Virus record (IMG/VR): IMGVR_UViG_3300028392_000036
Span: 78,902 to 142,901 of that record
Strand: one strand, 5' to 3'
Origin: a virus
Length of the DNA stretch: 64,000 nt
Of this stretch, positions 1,928 through 64,000 are shown piece after piece. Position numbers and translations under genes: made by a program. Under the pieces are notes generated by a model. The model ran no database searches. It was not told the origin of the DNA and was given only the letters and a program-made list of their open reading frames with translations. Each line of letters starts with the position of its first letter. The first letter of the stretch is position 1.

Positions 1928-2544
1928 CCCTGATCGGTGTTGCCCAAACGCTTCTTCATGAAGTTCAAAAGCAAGCCGTATGCTGGCAAGAACACAACAA
2001 AGCCAACTAAAATCTTCAATAGACTTTGGCTCAGGGCAATCTCGGGCCAGTTAGCGGCCATGTACTCGTCAGCACCACCCGAGAAGGCAATACTGAAGAA
2101 CACATAACTGTCGATGAAGTTGGCAACAACCATGCTGAGTGCAGGAGCCGCCCACCATTGCTGTGTGAACTTTTCGCGAACATATTGGAACACGTATACA
2201 TCTAACAAGCAACCAATTAGGTATGCTGTGGCTGATCCAAAACCAATACGTAAGGCAACTGATTGTGGTGCGCCTTCTAAGAGAACAACAGCAATACTAC
2301 CAATGATGGCAAGTGGATAGGCAGCCGCAATAGTGGCTCGAGCAATACCTTTACCAATCAATCGTACTGTCAAGTCTGTAGCCAAAATTACCAAGGGATA
2401 GGTAAATGCGGCCCATGTCAATTTCACACCCATGATCTCAACTGGAATTGAAACTAGAGCATTGCTGATTACGATCACGAAGATATGTAATGCAACCAAT
2501 TTGGCCATCATGACCCGATCTACGCCTTTGAAAATATCAAACAT
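1924..2544 (-). CDS. yhhQ: Queuosine-precursor (preQ0/preQ1) transporter, YhhQ/VUT family
   Basis: A 206-residue protein with about six membrane segments. It shows the family pattern of YhhQ/VUT transporters: a KLTWAAFTYPLVILATDLTVR stretch near residues 41-61 and the polar FGSATAYLIGCLLDVYVFQ and NFIDSYVFF helices in the middle. Known members import 7-cyano-7-deazaguanine, the precursor of tRNA queuosine, which some phages divert into DNA modification. No other queuosine or deazapurine gene is in the window. An AAGGAG ribosome site precedes the ATG, and two tandem hairpins lie in the 5' region. Confidence 0.85.
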   Translation of the reverse strand: MFDIFKGVDRVMMAKLVALHIFVIVISNALVSIPVEIMGVKLTWAAFTYPLVILATDLTVRLIGKGIARATIAAAYPLAIIGSIAVVLLEGAPQSVALRIGFGSATAYLIGCLLDVYVFQYVREKFTQQWWAAPALSMVVANFIDSYVFFSIAFSGGADEYMAANWPEIALSQSLLKILVGFVVFLPAYGLLLNFMKKRLGNTDQG

Positions 2545-2582
2545 CTGTGTCTCCTTTGTATGTTGATCTAGTAGTTATGTTT

Positions 2583-2618
2583 CTAGTGACAGCTCACTAG
2601 AGAAATCGCTTGATTTCT
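2583..2618. repeat. Two adjacent perfect hairpins between divergent genes
   Basis: CTAGTGA-CAGC-TCACTAG (2583-2600) abuts AGAAATC-GCTT-GATTTCT (2601-2618). Both have 7-bp perfect stems and 4-nt loops. They sit in the presumed 5' leader of the transporter on the minus strand and overlap the -35 of the phasin-like gene on the plus strand, so they could be operators or RNA control elements. I see no clear preQ1 aptamer. Confidence 0.6.
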
Positions 2619-2639
2619 GGTGTTTTTTTCATATATAAT
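2610..2639 (+). promoter_or_regulatory. Sigma70-like promoter of phasin-like gene
   Basis: TTGATT (2610-2615), an 18-nt spacer, then TATAAT (2634-2639). The SD (AGGAG) and ATG of the gene at 2700 follow. Confidence 0.6.
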
Positions 2640-2699
2640 ACTACATAGGACGCTGGATAGGCCGGGTCCTATAGTAAACTCGCTTTATAGGAGAACCAT

Positions 2700-2975
2700 A
2701 TGTTTACAGCAGACGCAATCATCGACACCGTTCAAACCGGTAAAAAAACTTTAGTTAACACATTCGTTACCAACGAAACAGCCAAAGAATCAATGATCAA
2801 GTTCATTGACGCACAAGCAGACTATACCAAACGAGCCGCCAAGGTTGGAATGGACACAGCAACTACATTGACCAGTGAAATGATCAAACAAGTGGAAGCA
2901 GTGGCAAAGTATGACTATGCCAAAGCAGGTCAAGACTTCCTAAAGGCATTCCAGCCCACAACTAGTAAAAAGTAA
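2700..2975 (+). CDS. Phasin-like protein
   Basis: A 91-residue, all-helical, amphipathic protein without Cys or Trp. It resembles the short phasins that coat polyhydroxyalkanoate granules: alternating Ala/Thr/Val and charged residues, e.g. QADYTKRAAKVGMDTATTL and AKYDYAKAGQDFLKAF. Similarity is by pattern only; coiled-coil stress proteins look alike. TAGGAG lies before the ATG. It is a single gene between its own promoter and a terminator, as expected for an independently expressed accessory gene. A phasin would imply manipulation of host carbon storage. Confidence 0.6.
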   Translation: MFTADAIIDTVQTGKKTLVNTFVTNETAKESMIKFIDAQADYTKRAAKVGMDTATTLTSEMIKQVEAVAKYDYAKAGQDFLKAFQPTTSKK

Positions 2976-2989
2976 TACCTTAGTATTAC
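2972..2989. repeat. Dispersed palindrome GTAATAC-N4-GTATTAC, copy 1
   Basis: GTAATAC-CTTA-GTATTAC. The stop codon of the phasin-like gene lies inside it. Similar elements occur at 12522, 26561 and 30059, each near a sigma70-like promoter. Candidate operator or processing site. Confidence 0.6.
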
Positions 2990-2997
2990 CTTTCTGA

Positions 2998-3023
2998 AAG
3001 GCCCCAATTTTTGGGGCTTTCTC
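2998..3023 (+). terminator. Rho-independent terminator
   Basis: GCCCC (3001-3005), A/T loop, GGGGC (3013-3017), then TTTCTCTT. It ends the phasin-like gene. The -35 of the next promoter starts directly after it. Confidence 0.75.
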
Positions 3024-3052
3024 TTGACCAATAAATGTCAAAGTGCTATAAT
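3024..3052 (+). promoter_or_regulatory. Sigma70-like promoter, TTGACCAATA class (leaderless)
   Basis: TTGACC (3024-3029), 17-nt spacer, TATAAT (3047-3052) with extended TGC. ATG of the next gene comes exactly 6 nt after the -10, so the transcript is predicted to be leaderless. Confidence 0.8.
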
Positions 3053-3058
3053 ACGGTT

Positions 3059-3478
3059 ATGAATACAAAACTTTACTTTGGCTACGGCATGAACACCAAT
3101 CTCAATGAGATGGCGTATCGGTGTCCTCGGGCACGAAGTCTTGGCCACGCACGACTATTAAATAGTGCGTTTCGCTTTGCTACTCACGCTGACGTGGTAG
3201 TGGTACCTGATTGCTATGTGGACGGAGTACTATGGTCTATCACTGAAGAATGTTTACAGAAACTGGATGCACTAGAAGGCTTCCCGCATTATTACAATCG
3301 CATTGAGATGGCTGTGGAACATGACGGTGAAATAAAAGATGCCATTGTTTACTTTATGAACCCTGGTCAGGCAGATGGCTTGCCCAGTCAAGGCTATTTT
3401 GATCTCCTGATGGAAGGCTACACCCAACATGGTGTGCCAACAGAACAATTACACAACGCATTGGAACTGTGGGTATGA
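3059..3478 (+). CDS. Gamma-glutamylcyclotransferase-like (GGCT/AIG2 family) protein
   Basis: A 139-residue protein. The N-terminal glycine-rich strand and loop (LYFGYGMNTN) and the later LDALEGFPHYYNR, which carries the expected catalytic Glu, are the hallmarks of the GGCT fold. Family members cleave gamma-glutamyl amines or form 5-oxoproline; the substrate cannot be told. A longer upstream start (3035) would lie inside the promoter, so I take the ATG at 3059, which coincides with the predicted transcription start. Its stop overlaps the next ATG (ATGA), opening an operon of exported proteins. Confidence 0.8.
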   Translation: MNTKLYFGYGMNTNLNEMAYRCPRARSLGHARLLNSAFRFATHADVVVVPDCYVDGVLWSITEECLQKLDALEGFPHYYNRIEMAVEHDGEIKDAIVYFMNPGQADGLPSQGYFDLLMEGYTQHGVPTEQLHNALELWV

Positions 3479-3720
3479 TCCGTCGACTGTTACCTGTACT
3501 ATTGTTGACTGGTTGTGCATCAACTGTGAGCTATGTACCACCACCCAGTGTCAATGCCATGCCTAATGATTGTGCAAATCAAACAGCAATGATCAATTGG
3601 TTAGAATCACAAGCTCGTATCCCGCGTCACTCAATGGAAAGGCAAGAAGACTATGAAATCAGCCGTGCATCGTTTCGCCATCGTATTTGGCACGTGCGTT
3701 ATATGTGCCGTCCTGTCTAG
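3475..3720 (+). CDS. Small lipoprotein
   Basis: An 81-residue product with a lipoprotein signal: MIRRLLPVLLLTGC, lipobox LLTGC, lipidated Cys at residue 14. The mature part has two more Cys. The start at ATGA (3475) is preferred over 3469 because it overlaps the previous stop and gives a compact signal. No function recognised; it is the first of a lipoprotein/exported protein series. Confidence 0.7.
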   Translation: MIRRLLPVLLLTGCASTVSYVPPPSVNAMPNDCANQTAMINWLESQARIPRHSMERQEDYEISRASFRHRIWHVRYMCRPV

Positions 3721-6052: not shown

Positions 6053-7126
6053 TTATTTTTTGTTTTGCTTCAGGTATTCCGCATAACTCATAGCCCTCTG
6101 TCCTGTTGCAATATCACGTGGTTGTTTTAGCCAGGCATCCACAGTATCGAGTTTTGTTGGTGCAGGTAATGCTTGTGCGGGTGCAGTTGTTGGCAATTGC
6201 TCTGGTTTGTTGTCTGTGTCAACTTGATTTATTTTATCCAATGCCTTTTTACCTAGTCCTGCTAGTCGTGCAATATCTCCTGGAGAGGTGGTGTTATTTG
6301 GATCAATACCAGCGTCCCACATTTTATACATTTTCTCGCGTACCTGGTCCGGGCTTAGAGCATTTGATAATTTGCTTGGATCGATATATTTCTCGCTGTC
6401 TATCTTTACAGGTTTACCACCGCTAGTGGCTGTGAATTTCGTATATTTGTGAAAACGACTACCCGAAGGCGAACCATCACTTCTTATTATACTTTTGAGT
6501 TCTTCAACTGGGTCAGTTTCACGATTATCTCTAACATAGGTGTCCCCAATATTTCCATCAAAGTCGGTTTTGTAAATTACAATTTTGTTTTCTTCTGGTG
6601 TATTACTAGCATAATAATCATAAGGTTCACTGTCGTCTGGTTCCTTTAGTTTATTTTGATAACGCCAGTCGCTCGGGTCATCGGCTCTTGACCTGAATGA
6701 TGATTTTACTTTTGCAGGATTGATAGCGACACTTTGAAGATGTTTGATCAGTTGGGCAGCCGCCAGTTCGGGATTTTGTCGATACAAATCTAGTAAATCA
6801 AACATTTGATCTGTAGCAGATATGTCATCCCCCCTATCCTCATCGTCATAGTCAGGCTCTATATCTTCAAAACCCAAGGCGCCGGCCATGTCTTCCTGGG
6901 CATCAAACAGATCATCGTCGTCCTCTGCGTCCCATTGATCGAGATGATCTTGAATGCCTTTTAACAATGCAATTCCGGCTGGGATAGGCATAGCGGCAAC
7001 ACCTGCTGGTGTTGACAGCAGTTTAACTACAGGTGCAGGCACAGCCGCACTAGCCGCAAAACTTGCTAGACTTTTAAGGAACCCTCTACGAGTTGATTCG
7101 TTGATGTATTCTTTTAGGGTTTTCAT
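6053..7126 (-). CDS. Tagged internal/virion-type protein with capsid-targeting-like and Tat-like N-terminus
   Basis: A 357-residue product from the ATG at 7126. Its first ten residues, MKTLKEYINE, closely resemble the T4 internal-protein capsid-targeting sequence (MKTYQEFIAE), cut after Glu by the gp21 prohead protease. The next residues, STRRGFLK, match a twin-arginine export motif and precede an Ala-rich hydrophobic stretch. The rest has an acidic region (DAEDDDDLFDAQED) and a hydrophilic C-terminus ending MSYAEYLKQNKK. No enzyme motif is seen. It follows the gene at 7131 with 4 nt between stop and start. Confidence 0.7.
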   Translation of the reverse strand: MKTLKEYINESTRRGFLKSLASFAASAAVPAPVVKLLSTPAGVAAMPIPAGIALLKGIQDHLDQWDAEDDDDLFDAQEDMAGALGFEDIEPDYDDEDRGDDISATDQMFDLLDLYRQNPELAAAQLIKHLQSVAINPAKVKSSFRSRADDPSDWRYQNKLKEPDDSEPYDYYASNTPEENKIVIYKTDFDGNIGDTYVRDNRETDPVEELKSIIRSDGSPSGSRFHKYTKFTATSGGKPVKIDSEKYIDPSKLSNALSPDQVREKMYKMWDAGIDPNNTTSPGDIARLAGLGKKALDKINQVDTDNKPEQLPTTAPAQALPAPTKLDTVDAWLKQPRDIATGQRAMSYAEYLKQNKK

Positions 7127-7130
7127 TTTA

Positions 7131-8861
7131 TTATCCTTTTTTCTTGCGCCCTGTAGTCTTTTCATCAAAGTCGGCATCCTGAGCCTGTCTGGCTGCCTTG
7201 GCTCCCGGCCCAGTTAGTCTAGGTGCTTGTCCCACTTGATTGAGCTTTTCAATGTCCCCAATATCACTAGCATCTGCTGATGCTTCTTTAGAATCGCTAG
7301 GCTTGTTGGTTTTCTTTTTCTTCTTGCCCACGTCACCTGCATTGGGCGGCACTATCATGAAGCCCGGACGATTGTTACCTGCTATGTGGCTGGGTGCGTG
7401 ATAGTCAAATTCAAAGTCCAAGTTACCAAACGGCTTGCTGGTAATAACCAGTTGTCCTTCATTGTCAATGTCCACGTGACCCAGCTGGCAATTCAACTGT
7501 TTGATCATGTCGTTCATGATATCTTTGTATTGCTGTTGGTTAGGTCCACGGCGAATCATATACTCTATGCCCTTGCCTAAACTGTAGGCGATAATGTTGG
7601 CAGCACCATCCACATGATCATTGTCGTAACTGTATTTTCCTGCAATACCGGGTTTGGGCTTGTTGGCAGTGAGTCCCAGATAATAGTTTGAATCTTGTGG
7701 CATACCCACATTGCTACCCCATTGGCCGGCCTGTGTGGCAGGAAGTATCATTTGTAAAAATCCCTTGTAATCTAATTTTTCAACCAAGGGTTTTAATAGT
7801 TTTTTTAGTTCTGCCCAACTGTTGAATTCGCCGCCCAAGATGTCCACATAGCTGATATATTCGGGAGTTTGATTTCGATTGGCAGCCAAACAGATACGGT
7901 CAGTGACTGATCCTTCTTTTTTGGTGCTGGCCCAGATCTTGATAGCATCACGAAACATTTTTTGTTTGCCTTCGTCGGTCAAGGTCTGGTCGTATTCTTC
8001 TAGTAGGCTACCCAGACTGTTCATGCTGGTTCCTGAGCCGCCCAGCGCCTTGACACTGTAGCGTGTGTTGCCGCCCACAGTGACGTCGATCAACTTTTCG
8101 TTTCCCACTGGAAAACTAATTTCTTCGCTTTCGTTGGCTAATGCGATCGGAGCCAAGATCTCACCAAAGTCTTGACTGATCATGCCCAGGAATGGTTTTA
8201 CATATTCTAGGCTTTCGGGACTCAATTGTCCAGAGCCACGATTTTCAGCCAGCTCGACTAGCTCGGTCAGCGCCTTGGCCAAGTTTTCATTTTTGATTTT
8301 TGATTTGATAGCTTCTTTAGTGGCAGTGGCTAATTCTTTTCGGTCTGAGTACTCTCCGGCCAGGCCCAACTTGACTGGGGTAAGATCTTTGCGGTTCAAC
8401 ACTAGATCAACAGCGGCACCGGCATAGCTGGCAGCAGTCTTGACTCCACGTAGAACAAAGGTAAAAGTCTTGCCTTGACCGGTGTAACTGTAAATACTAA
8501 ATTGTCCACTAGATATGGCCTGATGGTCAGTTACAGGTGCTGAAACCAGCCCTAGCCCTTCTGCAGATTGCTCCAGTTGTGCTGGTGTTACGTCGCTGAT
8601 ACGCAGTACTGGTAATCGTCCAGATTTTTTGCTGTATTCTATTTTGTTTTTGGCATTTTCAACTCCGGCCTGCTCTAACCATTCTGACAATGCTGGAATC
8701 ATACTTTCGTAATCTGCTTTTTCGGCATAAACGGGCTGGGCAGGTTCTGCACCTGGGGGCTGTGCCGCAACTGCGGCATCTAATTCAGCTTCAAGTATCA
8801 TCATCTGTACCTTTGGTCCTTTGTCTGTAATTGATTCGAATAATTTTAGAGTATCGTGCAT
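7131..8861 (-). CDS. Large phage protein of unknown function, possible virion cargo
   Basis: A 576-residue protein beginning [13 protein letters not shown], where LFE-S fits the (L/I)xE site of the T4 gp21 prohead protease. Most of it is hydrophilic and globular with no signal peptide. The C-terminal 80 residues are low-complexity and very basic ([13 protein letters not shown] and a final RKKKG). It is the first gene of a two-gene minus-strand operon with the 6053-7126 gene, divergent from clpP. A structural or DNA-binding internal protein would fit; not proven. Confidence 0.7.
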
Positions 8862-8913: not shown

Positions 8914-9504
8914 ATGCCAAACTTAGTACCTATTGTACTTGAACAAACAGCCAAAGGCGAACGCAGTTACGACATCTATAGCCGATTGCTAAAAGACCGT
9001 GTGATCATGCTGGACACAGAAGTGTCGGAACACACAGCCAGTTTACTGGTGGCACAGATGCTGTTTTTAGAAAGCGAAAATCCCGACAAGGATATCTCCC
9101 TATATATCAACTCGCCGGGCGGATCAGTAACAGCCGGTATGGCCATCTATGATACCATGCAGTTTATCCGGTGTGATGTGCAGACCATTGTGATGGGACA
9201 GGCCTGCTCCATGGGAAGTCTGCTAAGTACAGCAGGAGCCGCGGGCAAGCGTATGATTTTGCCCAATGCCCGACACATGATTCACCAACCATCAGGTGGT
9301 GCTCATGGACAAGCCACAGACATCCAAATCCAAGCAAGAGAAATTCAAAAGATGAAAGAGTATCTTACCAACATCTATGTCAAGCATAATTCAGCAGGTA
9401 AAACCTTTGGGCAGTTATCAGCAGATATGGAACGTGATTTCTTTATGTCAGCACAAGAAGCCTTGGACTATGGATTGGTAGACAAGATACTCGATAAACG
9501 TTAA
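8914..9504 (+). CDS. clpP: ATP-dependent Clp protease proteolytic subunit
   Basis: A 196-residue canonical ClpP. Catalytic Ser99 (QACSMG), His124 (MIHQPSGG) and Asp175 (MERDFFMSA) are present, with the NSPGG oxyanion segment. ClpP forms a 14-subunit barrel fed by ClpX/ClpA. No Clp ATPase is in the window, so it may plug into the host unfoldase. ATG 8914 is chosen because AAGGAG lies just upstream and the N-terminus then matches mature ClpP; an upstream start at 8821 would pass through the promoter. It overlaps the radical SAM gene (TAATG). Confidence 0.93.
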
Positions 9505-25731: not shown

Positions 25732-26547
25732 TTATCGAACAGCGCCAGCGATGTCGGCTTTGCTGATGTTCCTAGCACCCATAACATCGTTGCCATATTC
25801 CGTCCAGTCCACTGCCTGCCAAGGTGCTAGATCACCCCGAACAAAAAAGAAACTGTTGGGATTGGCCAGTTCAAATCCTTGTGTGATGATTTGCCCAGCA
25901 CGTCGGCCCTTCATCCTGAATGCAAAGTCGGCATCAGCAGGATCACGCACAAACTCATATCGGCCACTGGGCTTGGGCGGCTGAATTTGAGGTCGCTTTA
26001 CTTCGGTCCTGCGCCAAATTTGTGCCACTGCCGGAACATCGTATCCGCGTCGTGGGCCCTCACTGGGCAGGTAAAAACTATTGCGTGGTAGCACGTATTC
26101 GTCCATGAGTTCAAAGTCGTCGTCCAATCTATTTTGTATGCTGGGTCTGCGAAATGTGCGCGGAACAATTTGTGCAATGAAATCTGCAAAGGTTGAGGCC
26201 TTGTTGAAGAACCGGATGGCCAGATCTGATCCACGACCAAACGGAGGATTTTGTATGACCATGAGCCCTGGTTGACGTTGGTGTTGTGCTGTGAAGAAGT
26301 CTTGTCGAGTAATCTTGGGACTCTTGGGATCCAAATCATACATTTCAATACCAGGAAAATAACGTGCCAGATCTTGATTGCCTGCGGCTGGTTCAATCAT
26401 GCGTGACACTGGCAAGCGGTGACTTTTGACCCAGTTGGCAAATTGTTCTGCCGCTTGCGGACGAGTAAAGAACTGATCGTGCTCTACACCAGCAGATTGT
26501 TTACGCTGTGCTTGGGTTTTTTCCGGGATAAATTCGTTGAAACGCAT
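25732..26547 (-). CDS. Adenine-type DNA methyltransferase with capsid-targeting-like tag
   Basis: A 271-residue protein from ATG 26547. After a short tag (MRFNEFIPEK; IPE-K fits the gp21-type (L/I)xE site) it shows SAM-binding motif I (IEPAAGNQDL, residues 51-60) and catalytic motif IV (NPPFG, 100-104), as in N6-adenine methyltransferases; no target-recognition domain is obvious. An AAATAAATAC late box sits 3 nt before the ATG, the same as for superoxide dismutase. Together these suggest a late-made, perhaps virion-packed methyltransferase that could protect injected DNA. A longer start (26646) is rejected. Confidence 0.8.
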   Translation of the reverse strand: MRFNEFIPEKTQAQRKQSAGVEHDQFFTRPQAAEQFANWVKSHRLPVSRMIEPAAGNQDLARYFPGIEMYDLDPKSPKITRQDFFTAQHQRQPGLMVIQNPPFGRGSDLAIRFFNKASTFADFIAQIVPRTFRRPSIQNRLDDDFELMDEYVLPRNSFYLPSEGPRRGYDVPAVAQIWRRTEVKRPQIQPPKPSGRYEFVRDPADADFAFRMKGRRAGQIITQGFELANPNSFFFVRGDLAPWQAVDWTEYGNDVMGARNISKADIAGAVR

Positions 26548-26550
26548 AGA

Positions 26551-26560
26551 GTATTTATTT
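26551..26560 (-). promoter_or_regulatory. T4-late-like promoter box (AAATAAATAC)
   Basis: Minus-strand AAATAAATAC, 3 nt before the ATG of the tagged methyltransferase. Identical in sequence and spacing to the box at 37705. Confidence 0.6.
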
Positions 26561-36444: not shown

Positions 36445-36802
36445 TCTCAACGGTCGTAAAAAAGGCAAGGTCAAGTTTCGTAATGCAGACGAGGCTCGCA
36501 AGGCACGTGAATTAGATACCTCGTGGAAAGAATTAAAAAAGAAGTGGGACGTGGATGCTGAAGAAAAGCGTCGTAATCGTGCCTTGAAGGCCGAACCGCT
36601 TGATTATAAACTGACCACTCCTGCTGGTCGTAGCACCGCGCATATACCCAGTCTGTCAACTCCTGGTGGATCTACAGCACCTGTTTACAAAGTTTATACA
36701 GGTACCAAGGTCAAAGGTATTGCTACCATGCACAAGTCAAATGCTGTGCCTGTGTTCTCAAACGAAGAGGCTGTGGAGATTTCCAGAATGCGACGTGGAT
36801 GA
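36413..36802 (+). CDS. Basic phage protein
   Basis: A 129-residue protein starting MSMHLHHPSLSLNGRKKGKV, a start familiar from phages of aquatic bacteria. The N-half is highly basic and helical (DEARKARELDTSWKELKKKW); the C-half is Ser/Thr/Pro-rich. Possibly DNA- or RNA-associated. Ends in an ATGA overlap. Confidence 0.65.
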   Translation: MSMHLHHPSLSLNGRKKGKVKFRNADEARKARELDTSWKELKKKWDVDAEEKRRNRALKAEPLDYKLTTPAGRSTAHIPSLSTPGGSTAPVYKVYTGTKVKGIATMHKSNAVPVFSNEEAVEISRMRRG

Positions 36803-37491: not shown

Positions 37492-37710
37492 ATGGCAAAA
37501 GAAGATATTATAAACATGGAGGGTCGAGTAGAAGAAGTACTACCAGCCGCCATGTTCCGGGTAAAAATAGACAACATCAACAACGTGGTACTAGCACACT
37601 TATCCGGGCGTATGCGCAAGAACAACATCAAAGTCCTCTTGGGAGATCGGGTAGAAATGGAATTTAGCCCATATGATCTTACCAAGGGACGTATTACTCG
37701 TCGCAAATAA
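37492..37710 (+). CDS. infA: Translation initiation factor IF-1
   Basis: A 72-residue IF-1. It follows the bacterial protein along its whole length: [18 protein letters not shown], then [20 protein letters not shown] and [15 protein letters not shown]. The S1/OB fold is complete, so it should bind the 30S A site during initiation. One insertion (IDNINNVV) differs from bacterial IF-1. No SD is seen. Its stop codon overlaps the late box of the superoxide dismutase gene. Many genes here are leaderless or coupled, so a phage IF-1 may tune start selection. Confidence 0.93.
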
Positions 37711-37714
37711 ATAC
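37705..37714 (+). promoter_or_regulatory. T4-late-like promoter box (AAATAAATAC)
   Basis: AAATAAATAC, 3 nt before ATG 37718. Identical to the box before the tagged methyltransferase (26551-26560). Confidence 0.6.
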
Positions 37715-37717
37715 AAG

Positions 37718-38266
37718 ATGGAATTACGCAACCACATCAATCTTGTAGAAGCAAGCACCCGTCCAGCAAAACTGGAAACTACCCCTCTCCCTTACGGTGT
37801 CAAAGACCTTGAGCCTGTGATGAGCAGAGCCACTATCGACTATCATTTTGAACACCTAGCCAAAGGCTATGCAAAGCGTTACAACGCAGGAGAAGGCAAT
37901 GCGGATTTTAATCGTGCTGGCAGTTTTCTACACAATAAATTTTTCCCTCAGCTTCGGGCTCCCAAGGGCGCAAACAAGCCCCGCGGTGCAGTACTCGCGC
38001 TGATAGAAGAAAACTTCAAGACTTGGGAAGATTTCAAGGAGCAGTTTAAAGAAACTGCAATGAAGATCCAGGGGTCTGGTTGGGTTTACTTGAGCACTGG
38101 TGGTACAATCAAAACAATCCCCAATCATCAAGTTCGCACTGATATCTGCTGTTTAGTAGACTGGTGGGAACACGCCTGGAGTTTAGACTACCAGTGGGAC
38201 AAAGAAAAATACCTAGACAATATCTGGAAGATTATTGACTGGGACGTTTGTAACGAAAGACTATAA
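37718..38266 (+). CDS. Fe/Mn superoxide dismutase with capsid-targeting-like tag
   Basis: A 182-residue SOD from ATG 37718. Metal-ligand candidates are His43 (TIDYHFEHL), Asp148 and His152 (DWWEHAW). Where usual enzymes have NH in WNHTFYW, this has His72-Asn73 (LHNKFF), so the second ligand is swapped by one position, a feature of a divergent clade. The N-terminus [12 protein letters not shown] is a likely gp21-type cleavage site. Superoxide is turned into oxygen and peroxide. The tag and late promoter suggest it may be packed in the virion. Confidence 0.88.
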
Positions 38267-56408: not shown

Positions 56409-56931
56409 GGGTCTGCAATATAAAGACCTAGAGGGCATGATGAAGCCCACGCTTCACGTGGACGAATTTGCGGCCAAAATGGGTGATGACGATGATATCA
56501 TTGTGCTATCATTCTTTGTGCGTGATTTAACAGCCGCCAAAGACCTAGTGGGATGGTTTGAAAAGGGCTATGACTTTGTGTTGGATGCCGATCGTAGCCC
56601 AGGTGAAATCAAGCCCAGCCGTTATCTAGTGTACTTAGAACTGCGTCGCCGTAGATCAGCACCACAGCACGTACAAACGCTGTTGGATGATTTATCGACA
56701 CTGACAGAATTTGCCCCAGAAGAATGGCGATTCAAATACGATGGTCGAGACCATGAATGGTCTGAAAAGACCTTTAGTGAACTGGTGCCATTAACTCCGG
56801 ATTCTTATAGAGCCACGCACGAAGATGACCTAAATGATGTGCGCACAGCGGCGGGTATTGCACCCAAAAAGATTCACGAAAAACTGCCGGATGATGTTAA
56901 ATCATTGCAGAGCATGGCCGGGATACGATAA
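56341..56931 (+). CDS. T4-like phage protein of unknown function
   Basis: A 196-residue protein. The stretch MMKPTLHVDEFAAKMGDDDDIIVL near residues 33-56 is characteristic of these phages. It overlaps the upstream gene by 68 bp and the downstream gene by TAATG-like coupling. No enzyme motif. Confidence 0.7.
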   Translation: MNKPTMLNNPFNSNQPLPALLSEGLQYKDLEGMMKPTLHVDEFAAKMGDDDDIIVLSFFVRDLTAAKDLVGWFEKGYDFVLDADRSPGEIKPSRYLVYLELRRRRSAPQHVQTLLDDLSTLTEFAPEEWRFKYDGRDHEWSEKTFSELVPLTPDSYRATHEDDLNDVRTAAGIAPKKIHEKLPDDVKSLQSMAGIR

Positions 56932-58739
56932 TGAAGATAAACGACGTACTAGTAGAATTTGCACCCGCAGGTGGCGGAGGTTCAGGCAACTACTTTCAAG
57001 CCTTGGCCTCGGCCTGGTACAATGGTACCTTTGACACAGGCAGCCTGCAAAAAGGCATCAAGAGTCAAGAAGACGTGGAACGCTTGTTGAATCGCGGCAT
57101 TGTGTGCCCAGACGGCAAGACTCGTAAACTGCATATTGATTACAACTCAGACTTTGACGGTGTGGAAATCTACAGTGATGACTACTATGAATACGGTGAT
57201 CACGATGACACCATAGACAGTCGCACAGGCCAAAAATGGGGGCCATATGACTTTATGGCATTCTCAGATGATGAATTAAGCGAAGGTATTAATGAAAAGT
57301 TGGGTGCCAACAGACCCAGTCTAGGCAACCGACGCGATCAATTCCGGAACCTGCACAAGATGCGTAAACAACGTGGGCTAAATGAATTCTCAGCCGATGG
57401 TGGCGACAGTGGTGGCGACAGTGGTGGCGAAGACGATGCACTACGCAAATACGCTCAAATGTGGTGGACCGGAGACGAAGCAACGCAAATGCAAATTGAA
57501 GCCGCACTGGCCCGTATGGGCTGGGAAATCGGTGAGGACGAAGGCGGCTACGACAACGGCGGTGTGTTTGTGGTACGTGCTGGCGATGAAAATGGCAAAA
57601 GTTATACATCATGGCCCGCAGAAGATTTGTCAGAAGGTGTGGCGGAAGGCTCGTTAGATGAAAAGTCAACAAGCCAGGCACAGTTCCGCACAATGGCGGC
57701 AGCCGCACACAATCCTGAATTTGCTCGTAAAGTAGGCATCAAACAGAGTGTGGCACGAGAGTTTAATCAGGCCGATCGAGGGCAAGACTACAAGTCATTG
57801 CCAAAAAAGGCCACCGAAGGCGCTCCGGTCACAGCAACTCCGGGATCCATTGAATCCGGTGGAGCGGTGGACAATTTCAAACAACAAATGACCAACAATA
57901 CTGAAATTGCTTACAAAAAAGGCATGGCGGAAGCCGCTTTTATGCACAGCGGACAAAGTGCTCCATTCAGTGGTGTTGGTGGCACTGCAAAATACGGGTA
58001 TGGCCTAAACGATATACGAAATGCAAGGGCAAAAAAACCAGAAATTGATGCCAATCTGAGAAAATTTAAAGCATGGATCAACGGTGGCCCAAAGCCAGTA
58101 GATATAAATGATGTAATTCAATCTGTTGAAGTATATTTTACAAATATCAAACCGCCGTCAGATGCTAGAGTTTCAACGGCATTTAATCAAATATTAAATT
58201 CACAAGGCCAAGGTTGGGTCGCTAATAAAAATCAAGCCATGCTATTAAATCCATCATTAGACGCAGCCATTAGAGAACCATTGCCCAATCAACGTGCTGG
58301 AAATAATCAAAACGCAGATGGGTACCCTATCGCTCCTTCAAGGCCAATGGCTGGACAAGCGGCACAACCAGCACAAGCGGCACAACCAGCACAACCAGCA
58401 CAAGCGGCACAACCAGCACAACCAGCACAAGCGACATCAGCACAAGCACCAGCGGCAGCGGCAAATTCAGCAAATCCTGTAGGTAAGAAATTTAATACTG
58501 CAAATGCTACAACTGTTACTCCGAAACCAATAACAAGACCAGCATTACCAATGCGAGAACAAGATACTGTAGAAAGCAAAAGCAAGCCCGCAGAAAAAGA
58601 AGCCGACTATGGTGATGATTATCAGCAAATGGTTTTGCGCTTGAAAAAACTGGCCGGTGCAGGTCCATTAAAGACTGTGTACGATCCGCAAAAGCGTGTG
58701 TATCGAAACATGCCCACAGCACAACAGCCCAAAAAATGA
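56931..58739 (+). CDS. Tagged internal/virion-type protein
   Basis: A 602-residue protein beginning MKINDVLVEF, a capsid-targeting-like tag (LVE-F). It is largely disordered. Multiple internal (L/I/V)xE-G or -S sites resemble gp21-type cleavage sites: GLNEFSADG, LSEGINEK and EGVAEGSLDE. A Gln/Pro/Ala repeat lies near residues 475-505 (AQPAQAAQPAQ). The C-terminus ends KRVYRNMPTAQQPK. Likely a cleaved internal or core protein; no enzyme found. Confidence 0.7.
   Translation: MKINDVLVEFAPAGGGGSGNYFQALASAWYNGTFDTGSLQKGIKSQEDVERLLNRGIVCPDGKTRKLHIDYNSDFDGVEIYSDDYYEYGDHDDTIDSRTGQKWGPYDFMAFSDDELSEGINEKLGANRPSLGNRRDQFRNLHKMRKQRGLNEFSADGGDSGGDSGGEDDALRKYAQMWWTGDEATQMQIEAALARMGWEIGEDEGGYDNGGVFVVRAGDENGKSYTSWPAEDLSEGVAEGSLDEKSTSQAQFRTMAAAAHNPEFARKVGIKQSVAREFNQADRGQDYKSLPKKATEGAPVTATPGSIESGGAVDNFKQQMTNNTEIAYKKGMAEAAFMHSGQSAPFSGVGGTAKYGYGLNDIRNARAKKPEIDANLRKFKAWINGGPKPVDINDVIQSVEVYFTNIKPPSDARVSTAFNQILNSQGQGWVANKNQAMLLNPSLDAAIREPLPNQRAGNNQNADGYPIAPSRPMAGQAAQPAQAAQPAQPAQAAQPAQPAQATSAQAPAAAANSANPVGKKFNTANATTVTPKPITRPALPMREQDTVESKSKPAEKEADYGDDYQQMVLRLKKLAGAGPLKTVYDPQKRVYRNMPTAQQPKK
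58349..58440 (+). repeat. Pro/Ala/Gln tandem repeat in tagged protein gene
   Basis: Repeats of CAAGCGGCACAACCAGCA-type units encoding AQAAQPAQP inside 56931-58739, probably length-variable. Confidence 0.7.
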
Positions 58740-58903
58740 CAAGACGCACAGCAAACGGTCGACCAGTTCCTGTGCTACAAGGCTCAGCAGGACCTGTAGC
58801 ACCCAACCCACATGTACCACCACCCATGCCCGCACAGCAGGCAATGACACGATTACCACAGCCTGTGATCAACATGGGACTGGGCCTGAAACTAAACCCA
58901 TGA
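58736..58903 (+). CDS. Small Pro-rich protein
   Basis: A 55-residue basic, Pro-rich protein (MTRRTANGRPVPVLQGS; PNPHVPPPMPAQQ). ATGA overlaps at both ends support it. Unknown function. Confidence 0.55.
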   Translation: MTRRTANGRPVPVLQGSAGPVAPNPHVPPPMPAQQAMTRLPQPVINMGLGLKLNP

Positions 58904-59103
58904 GAGCTAACGAATTCGTCACTGAGAAAAAGCGCATGAAGCGACTGAAAGAACTTACTTTTATGGGCCTGAGTCCTTGCACCAAAGACTGTTCAGGACA
59001 CCGTGCAGGCTACCGATGGTCAAAAGCACGTGGTGGTGTTAGCACAGCAAGCCCAAGCAACAGTTTTAACCGGGGTGCTGAAATAGCCAAGGCTGGCTAC
59101 TAA
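58900..59103 (+). CDS. Tagged small Cys/His protein
   Basis: A 67-residue protein beginning MRANEFVTEK, a capsid-targeting-like tag (VTE-K is a weaker match to (L/I)xE). It continues KRMKRLKELTFMGL, then CTKDCSGHRAGYRWSKAR, a Cys/His cluster that may bind metal or nucleic acid; a related Cys-rich module occurs at 63437. ATGA start overlap. Its 3' end overlaps the opposite-strand methyltransferase by 4 nt. Confidence 0.65.
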   Translation: MRANEFVTEKKRMKRLKELTFMGLSPCTKDCSGHRAGYRWSKARGGVSTASPSNSFNRGAEIAKAGY

Positions 59104-62996: not shown

Positions 62997-63440
62997 ATGT
63001 GGATCTTACACTTTCTTCCTGACAGCATTATTCTTGCATTCTGTAACACTCTGTTATTCGCGGGCATTTTAGCCACCGCGGCAGGCTTTGTTGCGCATCG
63101 TATCCCAGGATTGTGGTCATATCAATTGGGTTTTAAACTGGGTGGTATTGCATTGCTAGTACTAGGCGTGTACTTTCGCGGTGGACTGGCTGTGGAAGAA
63201 ACCTGGCGTGAGCGTGTGGCTGCTGTAGAAGCAAGACTTGCTCAGGCTGAAAAGGCTTCAGCAGATGCCAATACAAAAATAGACACAAAGTCACAAAAGA
63301 AAACAACGCAACTACGCGAACGCACCACATACATCCGACAGTATGTGGACCGTGAAGTTGTCAAGTACGATAACACTTGTACAATTCCTGAACCATTTAT
63401 TCGGGCGCATAATGACGCCGCGGAGGCACCTAAAAAATGA
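62997..63440 (+). CDS. Rz/i-spanin-like membrane protein
   Basis: A 147-residue protein with two N-terminal hydrophobic segments (residues 5-32 and 40-58), then a coiled coil (AVEARLAQAEKASADANTKI) and a C-terminal periplasmic-type end (KYDNTCTIPEPFIRAHNDAA), similar to the tail of i-spanins (Rz). Spanins join inner and outer membranes at lysis. It is far from the endolysin-holin pair. Late box upstream. An alternative is a general membrane protein. Confidence 0.65.
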   Translation: MWILHFLPDSIILAFCNTLLFAGILATAAGFVAHRIPGLWSYQLGFKLGGIALLVLGVYFRGGLAVEETWRERVAAVEARLAQAEKASADANTKIDTKSQKKTTQLRERTTYIRQYVDREVVKYDNTCTIPEPFIRAHNDAAEAPKK

Positions 63441-64000
63441 AAATAAATGATATTTTAAATGAACAGTGGAGTCAAAAATACAAGAGCAGTATCAACTGCT
63501 CACACCCCAAAGGGTTTAGTCAACGAGCACATTGTGCCGGCAAAAAGAAACACAACGAAAGTGTTGAAATGGAAATGGTCTGCGAAGACTGTGGCATGTG
63601 TGAAACACACGGTAATGTAATGGAGATTCGGAAGGGTCAGAAAGACTCAAACGGATATACACGTTGTTGGCCGGGCAAACACGCCGAAGGCACCAAAAAA
63701 GGCAAGAATGGTGGACAGGTGCGTAACTGTGTGCCCAATGAAAGCGTTAACGAAGATGGCAAGCGATGCATGCAATGCGGTATGATCAATTGCAAGTGCC
63801 CTGGCGATAGTTGCAAGTGCAAGCCGGTCAAGGGTTGGGTGCCTGGCAAAGGATTCCGCAAAGCCATGGACGATGCTGCCAGTCGAGAACTGGCTGAAGA
63901 GTTTGATCTAATAGAAAACATCATTGAAGGTATTGCCGCACAAAATGGTGTAGACGCCGAAGCAGTATGGGCGGACCTAGAAAGTCTCACAGAAGATGAA
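63437..64000 (+). CDS. Tagged Cys-rich modular protein, 3' end cut by window edge
   Basis: Starts at an ATGA overlap and runs off the window (188 residues seen). The tag MKINDILNE-Q matches the (L/I)xE capsid-targeting type. The body is a chain of Cys-rich modules (CSHPKGFSQRAHCAGKKKHN, MVCEDCGMCETHG, RCMQCGMINCKCPGDSCKC) suggesting several bound metal ions. Similar modules occur at 58900. It is an unusual, mosaic virion-type protein of unknown function. Confidence 0.7.
   Translation, partial: MKINDILNEQWSQKYKSSINCSHPKGFSQRAHCAGKKKHNESVEMEMVCEDCGMCETHGNVMEIRKGQKDSNGYTRCWPGKHAEGTKKGKNGGQVRNCVPNESVNEDGKRCMQCGMINCKCPGDSCKCKPVKGWVPGKGFRKAMDDAASRELAEEFDLIENIIEGIAAQNGVDAEAVWADLESLTEDE

Follow-up and report, generated by a model that had tools for sequence, protein, structure and literature searches.

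Do short N-terminal peptides that end in glutamate mark otherwise unrelated phage proteins for packaging into the virus head, as the tags of the T4 internal proteins do? This question is raised by a window of 64 kb (the whole stretch of DNA analysed here), which corresponds to bases 78902-142901 of a linear viral record of 142,901 bases and forms the right end of this 142.9-kb fragment. An initial annotation had listed seven genes of the window whose N-termini end in E after an (L/I/V)x pattern, two of them within positions 6053-8861, and all seven ATG starts indeed translate as listed; the genes are named here by the coordinate of their start. The first tag, MKTLKEYINE, had been likened to MKTYQEFIAE of T4, which is nearly identical in form. 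The T4 protease gp21 cleaves after L/I-x-E, and for targeting a protein into the T4 head, ten IPIII residues are enough (PMC9026906).

The large terminase of the record (contig positions 5788-7377) features 52% identity to the terminase of the Pseudomonas jumbo phage PA5oct and 72-97% identity to many viral contigs from metagenomes, including several of 210-350 kb. Because of these matches, the record probably covers part of a jumbo phage of ~300-350 kb related to PA5oct. Genes were called with a simple, purpose-written codon-model caller, so that individual starts may be off.

Written as a loose pattern, i.e., M followed by three to seven residues and [LIV]xE, the motif occurs at 20 of the 177 gene starts of the genome compared with 12.0 in shuffles (p = 0.012), and the loose pattern alone is weak. 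A strict pattern, M[KR]-x(2-4)-[FYLIVM][LIVF]-x-E, was fixed on four genomes and tested on two held-out genomes. The own genome features seven such starts; shuffles gave 0.3 and column permutations 1.0 (maximum 4), and none of 775 internal methionines matched. One held-out genome gave 7 matches versus 0.75 in shuffles and 1.9 (maximum 8) in column permutations, and the other gave 9 matches versus 0.83 and 1.6 (maximum 6), respectively. Pooled over six related genomes, the pattern is found at 40 of 1759 gene starts versus 5 of 8374 internal methionines, which is a ~39-fold enrichment; since true orthologues, which are non-independent, are among the genes counted, the p-value of the pooled enrichment is too strong, while the fold enrichment does not depend on it. 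A test of orthologue families for an N-terminal LxE was weak (17 all-positive families versus 8-13 in control windows), and an unbiased alignment-start test, diluted by ordinary proteins, gave 16% versus a null of 4%. Moreover, a DNA scan of viral contigs for MRAxEFhxE returned at least 120 stretches, 80 of which were analysed as loci; among these, at least 87 matches were counted, including at least 82 at open-frame starts, and the bodies fall into at least 23 clusters of unrelated proteins.

Gene by gene, the tags of 7126, 26547, 37718, 56931, 58900, and 63437 are well supported, be it by the strict motif, by orthologues keeping [LIV]xE under a changing prefix or by a known module directly after the E. 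The remaining one, 8861, is weak, and the loose pattern itself is barely above chance. Six of the seven window tags have L or I at position -3, and 58900 has V. Collecting the motif throughout the genome, as had been proposed, revealed further tagged genes elsewhere on the contig that the initial annotation had missed, namely MRAREFVAE, MRAREFVTE, and MRAREFIPE at contig positions 2541, 2921, and 3298 as well as MINLNE|GGNVFKD at contig position 36686; under the loose rule, the collection also catches ordinary proteins, e.g., ClpP. The three MRAREF-tagged genes are small and arranged in tandem just ahead of the terminase (contig 2541-3684; also L001:2541-3684). Two such small tagged genes are kept ahead of the terminase in all relatives, and they may be core head proteins.

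That one tag precedes otherwise unrelated proteins was confirmed by the MRAxEFhxE body clusters and by the window itself, where a superoxide dismutase (SOD), a methyltransferase, unassigned and modular proteins carry it. The tagged 357-aa protein at 6053..7126 (minus strand) reads MKTLKEYINE, then STRRGFLKSLASFAASAA, with the cut predicted after E10; its T4-like tag (7097..7126, minus strand) is conserved in the relatives L173 and L175, and the RBS AAAGGATAATAAA lies ahead of the ATG. The 576-aa protein at 7131..8861 (minus strand) starts with the candidate tag MHDTLKLFE (8835-8861). This tag is doubtful: it is non-canonical, its N-terminus is not displayed by any close orthologue, and the gene caller gave a start at 8804 a better score. 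Searches of PHROG, Pfam, and PADLOC gave no match for this protein, which has one distant relative only, and a Hfq-like homology was rejected because the matches were weak (E about 0.01) and covered only part of the sequence. A phage-encoded ClpP (8914-9504, plus strand) adjoins the tagged genes at 6053-8861 on the opposite strand; it was rejected as a tagged protein, its matching N-terminus being the usual N-terminus of ClpP. ClpP peptides were also reported from particle preparations of PA5oct and CBB.

A DNA methyltransferase (25732..26547, minus strand; PADLOC MTase_II, 2e-27; PHROG 5172, 7e-39) contains NPPF and features the strict tag MRFNEFIPE (26521-26547). The Fe/Mn SOD (37718..38266, plus strand) exceeds the Pfam cut-offs (PF02777, 77.3 bits, 1e-21; PF00081, 28.7 bits, 1.9e-6) and starts with an 11-residue tag (37718-37750), which is followed by an ASTRPAK linker. 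Its metal ligand regions, H and DxxxH (DWWEH), align with the second His one position off in the alignment, and PDB alignments begin at query residues 18-22, equivalent to residues 3-5 of bacterial FeSOD. Out of 80 SOD loci retrieved from viral contigs, N-termini were compared for 24, and 21 distinct ones were found among these 24 loci listed. They vary in length and sequence before the site, e.g., MELRDHINLVE, MREHIDLLE, MRKEINLIE, and MHTTIRQDLELLE, with L[VIL]E|A[SN]T remaining constant. Likewise, the GGNVFKD proteins (contig position 36686) of six genomes feature six different prefixes before xE|GGNVFKD (6/6). As far as can be judged from sequence comparison, the tag is separable from the protein body. 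The gene ahead of the polyprotein gene at 56931 (56440-56931, plus strand) begins with MKPTLHVDEFAAKMGD, with varying prefixes in the orthologues (MKSTVHIDE|FASKMGD), and may encode another tagged protein.

As cargo, the SOD could dampen an oxidative burst during infection. DarB of phage P1 is thought to protect incoming DNA (PMC5512222), and by analogy with this proposed role the type II methyltransferase could do the same. In relatives, the tagged cargo includes GNAT acetyltransferases, a T7-kinase-like protein, a HAD phosphatase, ParB-like domains and a weak RegB-like match, i.e., typical takeover functions, which would suggest corresponding roles.

Genes for a Peptidase_S77 and a Gp23 capsid protein were searched on the own 142.9-kb contig and neither was found. 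An S77 protease scores above the curated cut-off in 9 of 13 large relatives, where its gene is located 40-55 kb left of the terminase. As the own contig starts just 5.8 kb left of the terminase, S77 is probably absent because the fragment ends before the place of the protease in the relatives. The gp21-type protease that had been presumed is missing from the contig and was found in relatives, at a place beyond the contig end, so that the idea of a packaging tag withstands the objection named in the initial annotation, a genome lacking such a protease. The S77 proteases of the relatives have the motifs GEVDHP and GVSSRG in common, and the catalytic His and Ser are presumably located in these. 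In the relatives, the capsid protein features KYLKE|NASAGSTxSGNIATL at the expected position, and the corresponding site in PA5oct is FLVE|NASAGATQAGNIATI. Small tagged proteins of the relatives read MRASEFIAE|NASAGGTSSGSIATV, with NASAGGTSSG after the tag E being nearly the same as in the capsid protein; hence, the end of the tag resembles the capsid's own cleavage site. At position -3, the residues V, M, and F occur here as well (VTE, VSE, MAE), which is a wider range than L/I in T4.

Three of the tagged genes, all on the plus strand, encode proteins of modular build. The tagged polyprotein of 602 aa at 56931..58739 contains 11 [LIVMF]xE sites versus 6.1 expected in shuffles, and its modules are common to relatives in other contexts. 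Its strict tag MKINDVLVE (56931..56957), at the place of which a relative has an internal LKE|FAPSAPGG, is followed by module b (FAPAGGGGSGNYFQALASAWYNG..., 56958..57284) between LVE and LSE sites. For module b, 10 independent upstream contexts were found, each of which places xE at the boundary, and the module is internal elsewhere, after LKE, LNE, VNE, FNE or LAE; both flanks are conserved (alignment A1), the far end also being an LxE site. Its fold was predicted by a moderate model (pLDDT 79), with no match below E 0.8 in a PDB search. Another, similar module (FSADGGDSGG...AQMWWTGDEATQ..., 57387..57647) stands after LNE and also behind SLNE in L266. Module c (KSTSQAQFRTMAAAAHNPEFARKVGI..., 57663..57818) follows LDE, with a site ahead in 7/7 independent contexts, and matches PHROG 16759 and the 'virion structural protein' PHROGs 22033 and 25121, while module g (GAPVTATPGSIESGGAVDNFKQQM..., 57819..57932) has E ahead in 7/7 contexts and the full [LIVMF]xE in 4/7, here ATE. 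The 67-aa protein at 58900..59103, whose upstream region has no clear RBS, consists of the tag MRANEFVTE (58900-58926), then KKRMKRLKE, then LTFMGLSPCTKDCSGHRAGYRW; its module f (58954-59100) is found after LxE in five independent contexts. Finally, a Cys/Lys-rich protein with the tag MKINDILNE (63437-63463) and module a (QWSQKYKSSINCSHPKGFSQRAHC) extends over 63437..64000 and runs past the contig end. Module a (KWSxKYKxSINC...) stands behind the tag here and in three relatives and is internal after EQELDE in another relative (5/5 contexts); in cyanophages, it occurs as a stand-alone protein, MKTFKQFQE|GWSNKYKKSIDC..., and internally after EEFRE in S-SM2.

The same behaviour as for modules a and b, i.e., a position behind either a tag or an internal site, was observed for modules c, e, f, g, and h. 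Likewise, the module DACYHKVKSRY... is internal in a cyanophage and in a jumbo polyprotein and occurs as a separate tagged gene product of 53 aa in another contig. Upstream contexts were called independent at <45% identity; of the 45 obtained in this way, 42 feature [LIVMF]xE exactly where the module begins, including four cases with the search pattern starting a few residues off, compared with a rate of at most 1.1% inside modules. The largest polyprotein found is a 1246-aa frame in L267 (1708, plus strand) with >12 such sites. Chains thus hold several modules, each bounded by the protease motif, as is expected of polyproteins processed by a head protease. From the position of the modules behind a tag or an internal LxE, we infer that, inside the prohead, the head protease would split these chains into their domains, and the proteins of 56931, 58900, and 63437 look like polyproteins, or parts thereof, of this kind. 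DNA binding is a possible role of the small Cys/Lys-rich modules.

Behind the tag of the 7126 protein, a Tat-like region (STRRGFLKSLASFAASAAVP, 7037..7096, minus strand) features the twin-arginine consensus and a hydrophobic stretch and is kept in 3/3 orthologues, which retain the tag and the RR motif with a variable spacer in between (MKTFKQYVNE|AQEQLNRRGFLKGLASFAA in L173, MKTFKQYIEILE|ALDQPSRRGFLKGLASFAA in L175). The Tat model PF10518 gave 13.5 bits on the 7126 protein, which is under the cut-off of 22.7. A different tagged protein, G008 g212 (MRAQELLVE|ITRRDFLRGAGAVAGSAALGSAQAQ), reached 28.8 bits with PF10518 at residues 9-29, directly after the tag, and a third one, from another contig, reads MRAKEFLAE|ITRRDFLRG. 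In G002, L266, and L274, Tat-like signals are located deep in long frames, each behind [LM]xE|D. As a signal peptide in mid-chain is sensible only with a cut ahead of it, these cases support release at the LxE sites. It is conceivable, albeit rather doubtful, that the head protease unmasks the twin-arginine signal as a new N-terminus and that the host Tat system exports the protein to the periplasm after delivery; the segment singled out for this export hypothesis is ITRRDFLRGAGAVAGSAALGSAQA. Besides Tat signals, the 1246-aa frame of L267 includes a module starting with VEE|GWKSTLAGAALAGASMLGGAHAQ, apparently a signal peptide of the Sec type that follows a protease site.

The strict pattern was fixed before it was compared with published virion proteomes of cultured phages. 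For S-CREM2, 52 proteins were reported in CsCl-purified virions (PMC10665884). The strict tag is present in five of its 219 proteins (a SAM hydrolase, an APH-like kinase, a cytidylyltransferase and two small proteins), and 5/5 were detected in the virion compared with 52/219 overall (p = 6.5e-4); contamination was considered possible for these enzymes by the authors (PMC10665884). In S-SZBM1, one of two strict-tag proteins was detected, a result that is individually non-significant; this cytidylyltransferase is the sole enzyme reported in the virion (PMC9146016). PA5oct features strict tags in 2/93 virion proteins versus 1/191 others, which is likewise non-significant individually; in both S-SZBM1 and PA5oct, the tagged proteins are too few to decide. 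Pooling the three phages resulted in 8/175 versus 2/487 (p = 5.7e-4), mostly driven by S-CREM2. In addition, the Cas9-like virion protein ORF12 of S-CREM2 (OR473000) carries LRFASFMAE|AAV ~25 residues in; possibly, its start is misannotated or extended and this stretch is a tag.

A single explanation, which we regard as highly probable, would account for targeting, cleavage, delivery and polyprotein processing. The N-terminal peptides would be capsid-targeting propeptides of the T4 internal-protein type, which bind the scaffold core during head assembly and bring unrelated proteins into the prohead. A gp21-type S77 protease would then cut after [L/I/V/M/F]-x-E, and the mature proteins would stay with the packaged DNA until infection, when the phage delivers them into the next host cell. 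The internal LxE sites of the 56931, 58900, and 63437 chains would be cut by the same protease, yielding several small domains. Motif enrichment, site conservation including the match to the capsid site, S77 in relatives and the presence of tagged proteins in virions of the cultured cyanophage S-CREM2 form the observed part behind this explanation, from which we infer targeting, cleavage and delivery in this phage. Arguing against it are the own contig devoid of S77 and Gp23, the wider residue choice at -3, the individually non-significant proteomes of S-SZBM1 and PA5oct and the weak orthologue-family test. Overall, the observations support the shared packaging tag on diverse cargo suggested by the initial annotation. 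Its picture of the cargo was right as to the diversity of tagged proteins and incomplete in other respects, as it lacked the modular polyproteins with internal sites and one Tat-like signal and included the doubtful 8861.

Alternatively, the tag might be a core-binding packaging signal that is not removed, with the internal LxE motifs acting as acidic linkers in large polyvalent virion proteins. Packaging is known for polyvalent proteins, which in some cases stay uncut (PMC5512222), and T4 IPIII with Asp at the last tag position retained targeting with no cut (PMC9026906). Nevertheless, an uncut tag is unlikely in view of the modules beginning right at [LIVMF]xE in 42/45 contexts versus at most 1.1% inside modules, and of the twin-arginine signals inside polyproteins, after sites, which could act only if released. 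Far less probable is an origin of the shared N-termini by chance or gene-start bias: it is refuted for the strict motif, which is enriched in held-out genomes as well, and opposed by the modules common to tag and internal sites and by the virion detection in S-CREM2. What such an origin would explain is the loose pattern (20 versus 12 expected, with ordinary ClpP included) and the weak orthologue-family test, as hydrophobic residues and Glu are common and a short motif holds little information; single members such as 8861 may have arisen in this way.

The least plausible alternative is a tag directing proteins to places in the infected cell other than the head, e.g., the membrane or a replication compartment. 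The T4 tag MKTYQEFIAE, almost identical in form, acts in head targeting (PMC9026906), and tagged enzymes were found in CsCl-purified S-CREM2 virions (PMC10665884), which both argue against another destination, whereas two tagged families with Tat-like signals, and a tag too short to name its receptor, would be in line with it.

The mechanism of capsid-targeting propeptides proposed here is of a known kind, namely that of the T4 capsid-targeting sequences. The tags of IPI, IPII, IPIII, and Alt also comprise an N-terminus of ~10 residues that ends in hydrophobic-x-E and precedes unrelated bodies, and T4 likewise features a gp21-type S77 protease, here found in relatives, and diverse internal proteins behind one tag (PMC3012670, PMC9026906). 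Differences from T4 concern the cargo (SOD and type II methyltransferase here; GNATs, kinase-like and RegB-like proteins in relatives), the wider -3 residues, very short tags (MRLRE, MNIFE) and several cut sites per cargo protein. The polyvalent proteins (Iyer et al., 2017), including P1 DarB, are similar as multi-domain, fast-shuffling, packaged proteins with methyltransferase, GNAT and ParB-like domains. Their domains act in one chain or have their own protease domain, whereas the modules described here have head-protease sites at their borders and are found as individual tagged genes, too. In phiKZ and SPN3US, propeptides of inner-body and ejection proteins are removed by a gp21-like protease and many proteins are ejected, but these phages belong to another lineage with other cut motifs (PMC9026906). 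The T4 core proteins gp22 and gp67 resemble the polyproteins in their multiple gp21 cuts per chain, although their fragments mostly exit the head, while the fragments here look like folded domains. The polyprotein architecture and the masked export signals look new, and no description of polyproteins cut inside a phage head with hidden export signals was found in the open-access literature searched.

If the explanation by capsid-targeting propeptides is true, a short, readable motif marks packed and delivered unknown genes of large T4-type phages, and hundreds of 'hypothetical proteins' could be tested from sequence as host-takeover or counter-defence effectors. Moreover, the metabolic enzymes recurring in cyanophage virions, for which the S-CREM2 authors were undecided between cargo and contamination, would be explained, and polyproteins cut inside the phage head with hidden export signals would represent a delivery strategy.

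Besides the tags, a TAAATA late-promoter-like box was noticed 4 nt ahead of the SOD start (37708..37713, plus strand) and, in the sequence ahead of the 26547 start, with the same spacing (26552-26557, minus strand). In a genome-wide count, which took in G000, G002, G003, G008, G009, and G011, TAAATA boxes of the T4 type, ending 4-8 nt ahead of the ATG, were found at 14 genes here and at ~20-30 genes per large relative; spacings of 9-14 nt are nearly empty, and a second peak occurs at 15-25 nt. As the T4 spacing from TAAATA puts the transcript start at or beside the ATG, this analogy suggests leaderless late mRNAs.
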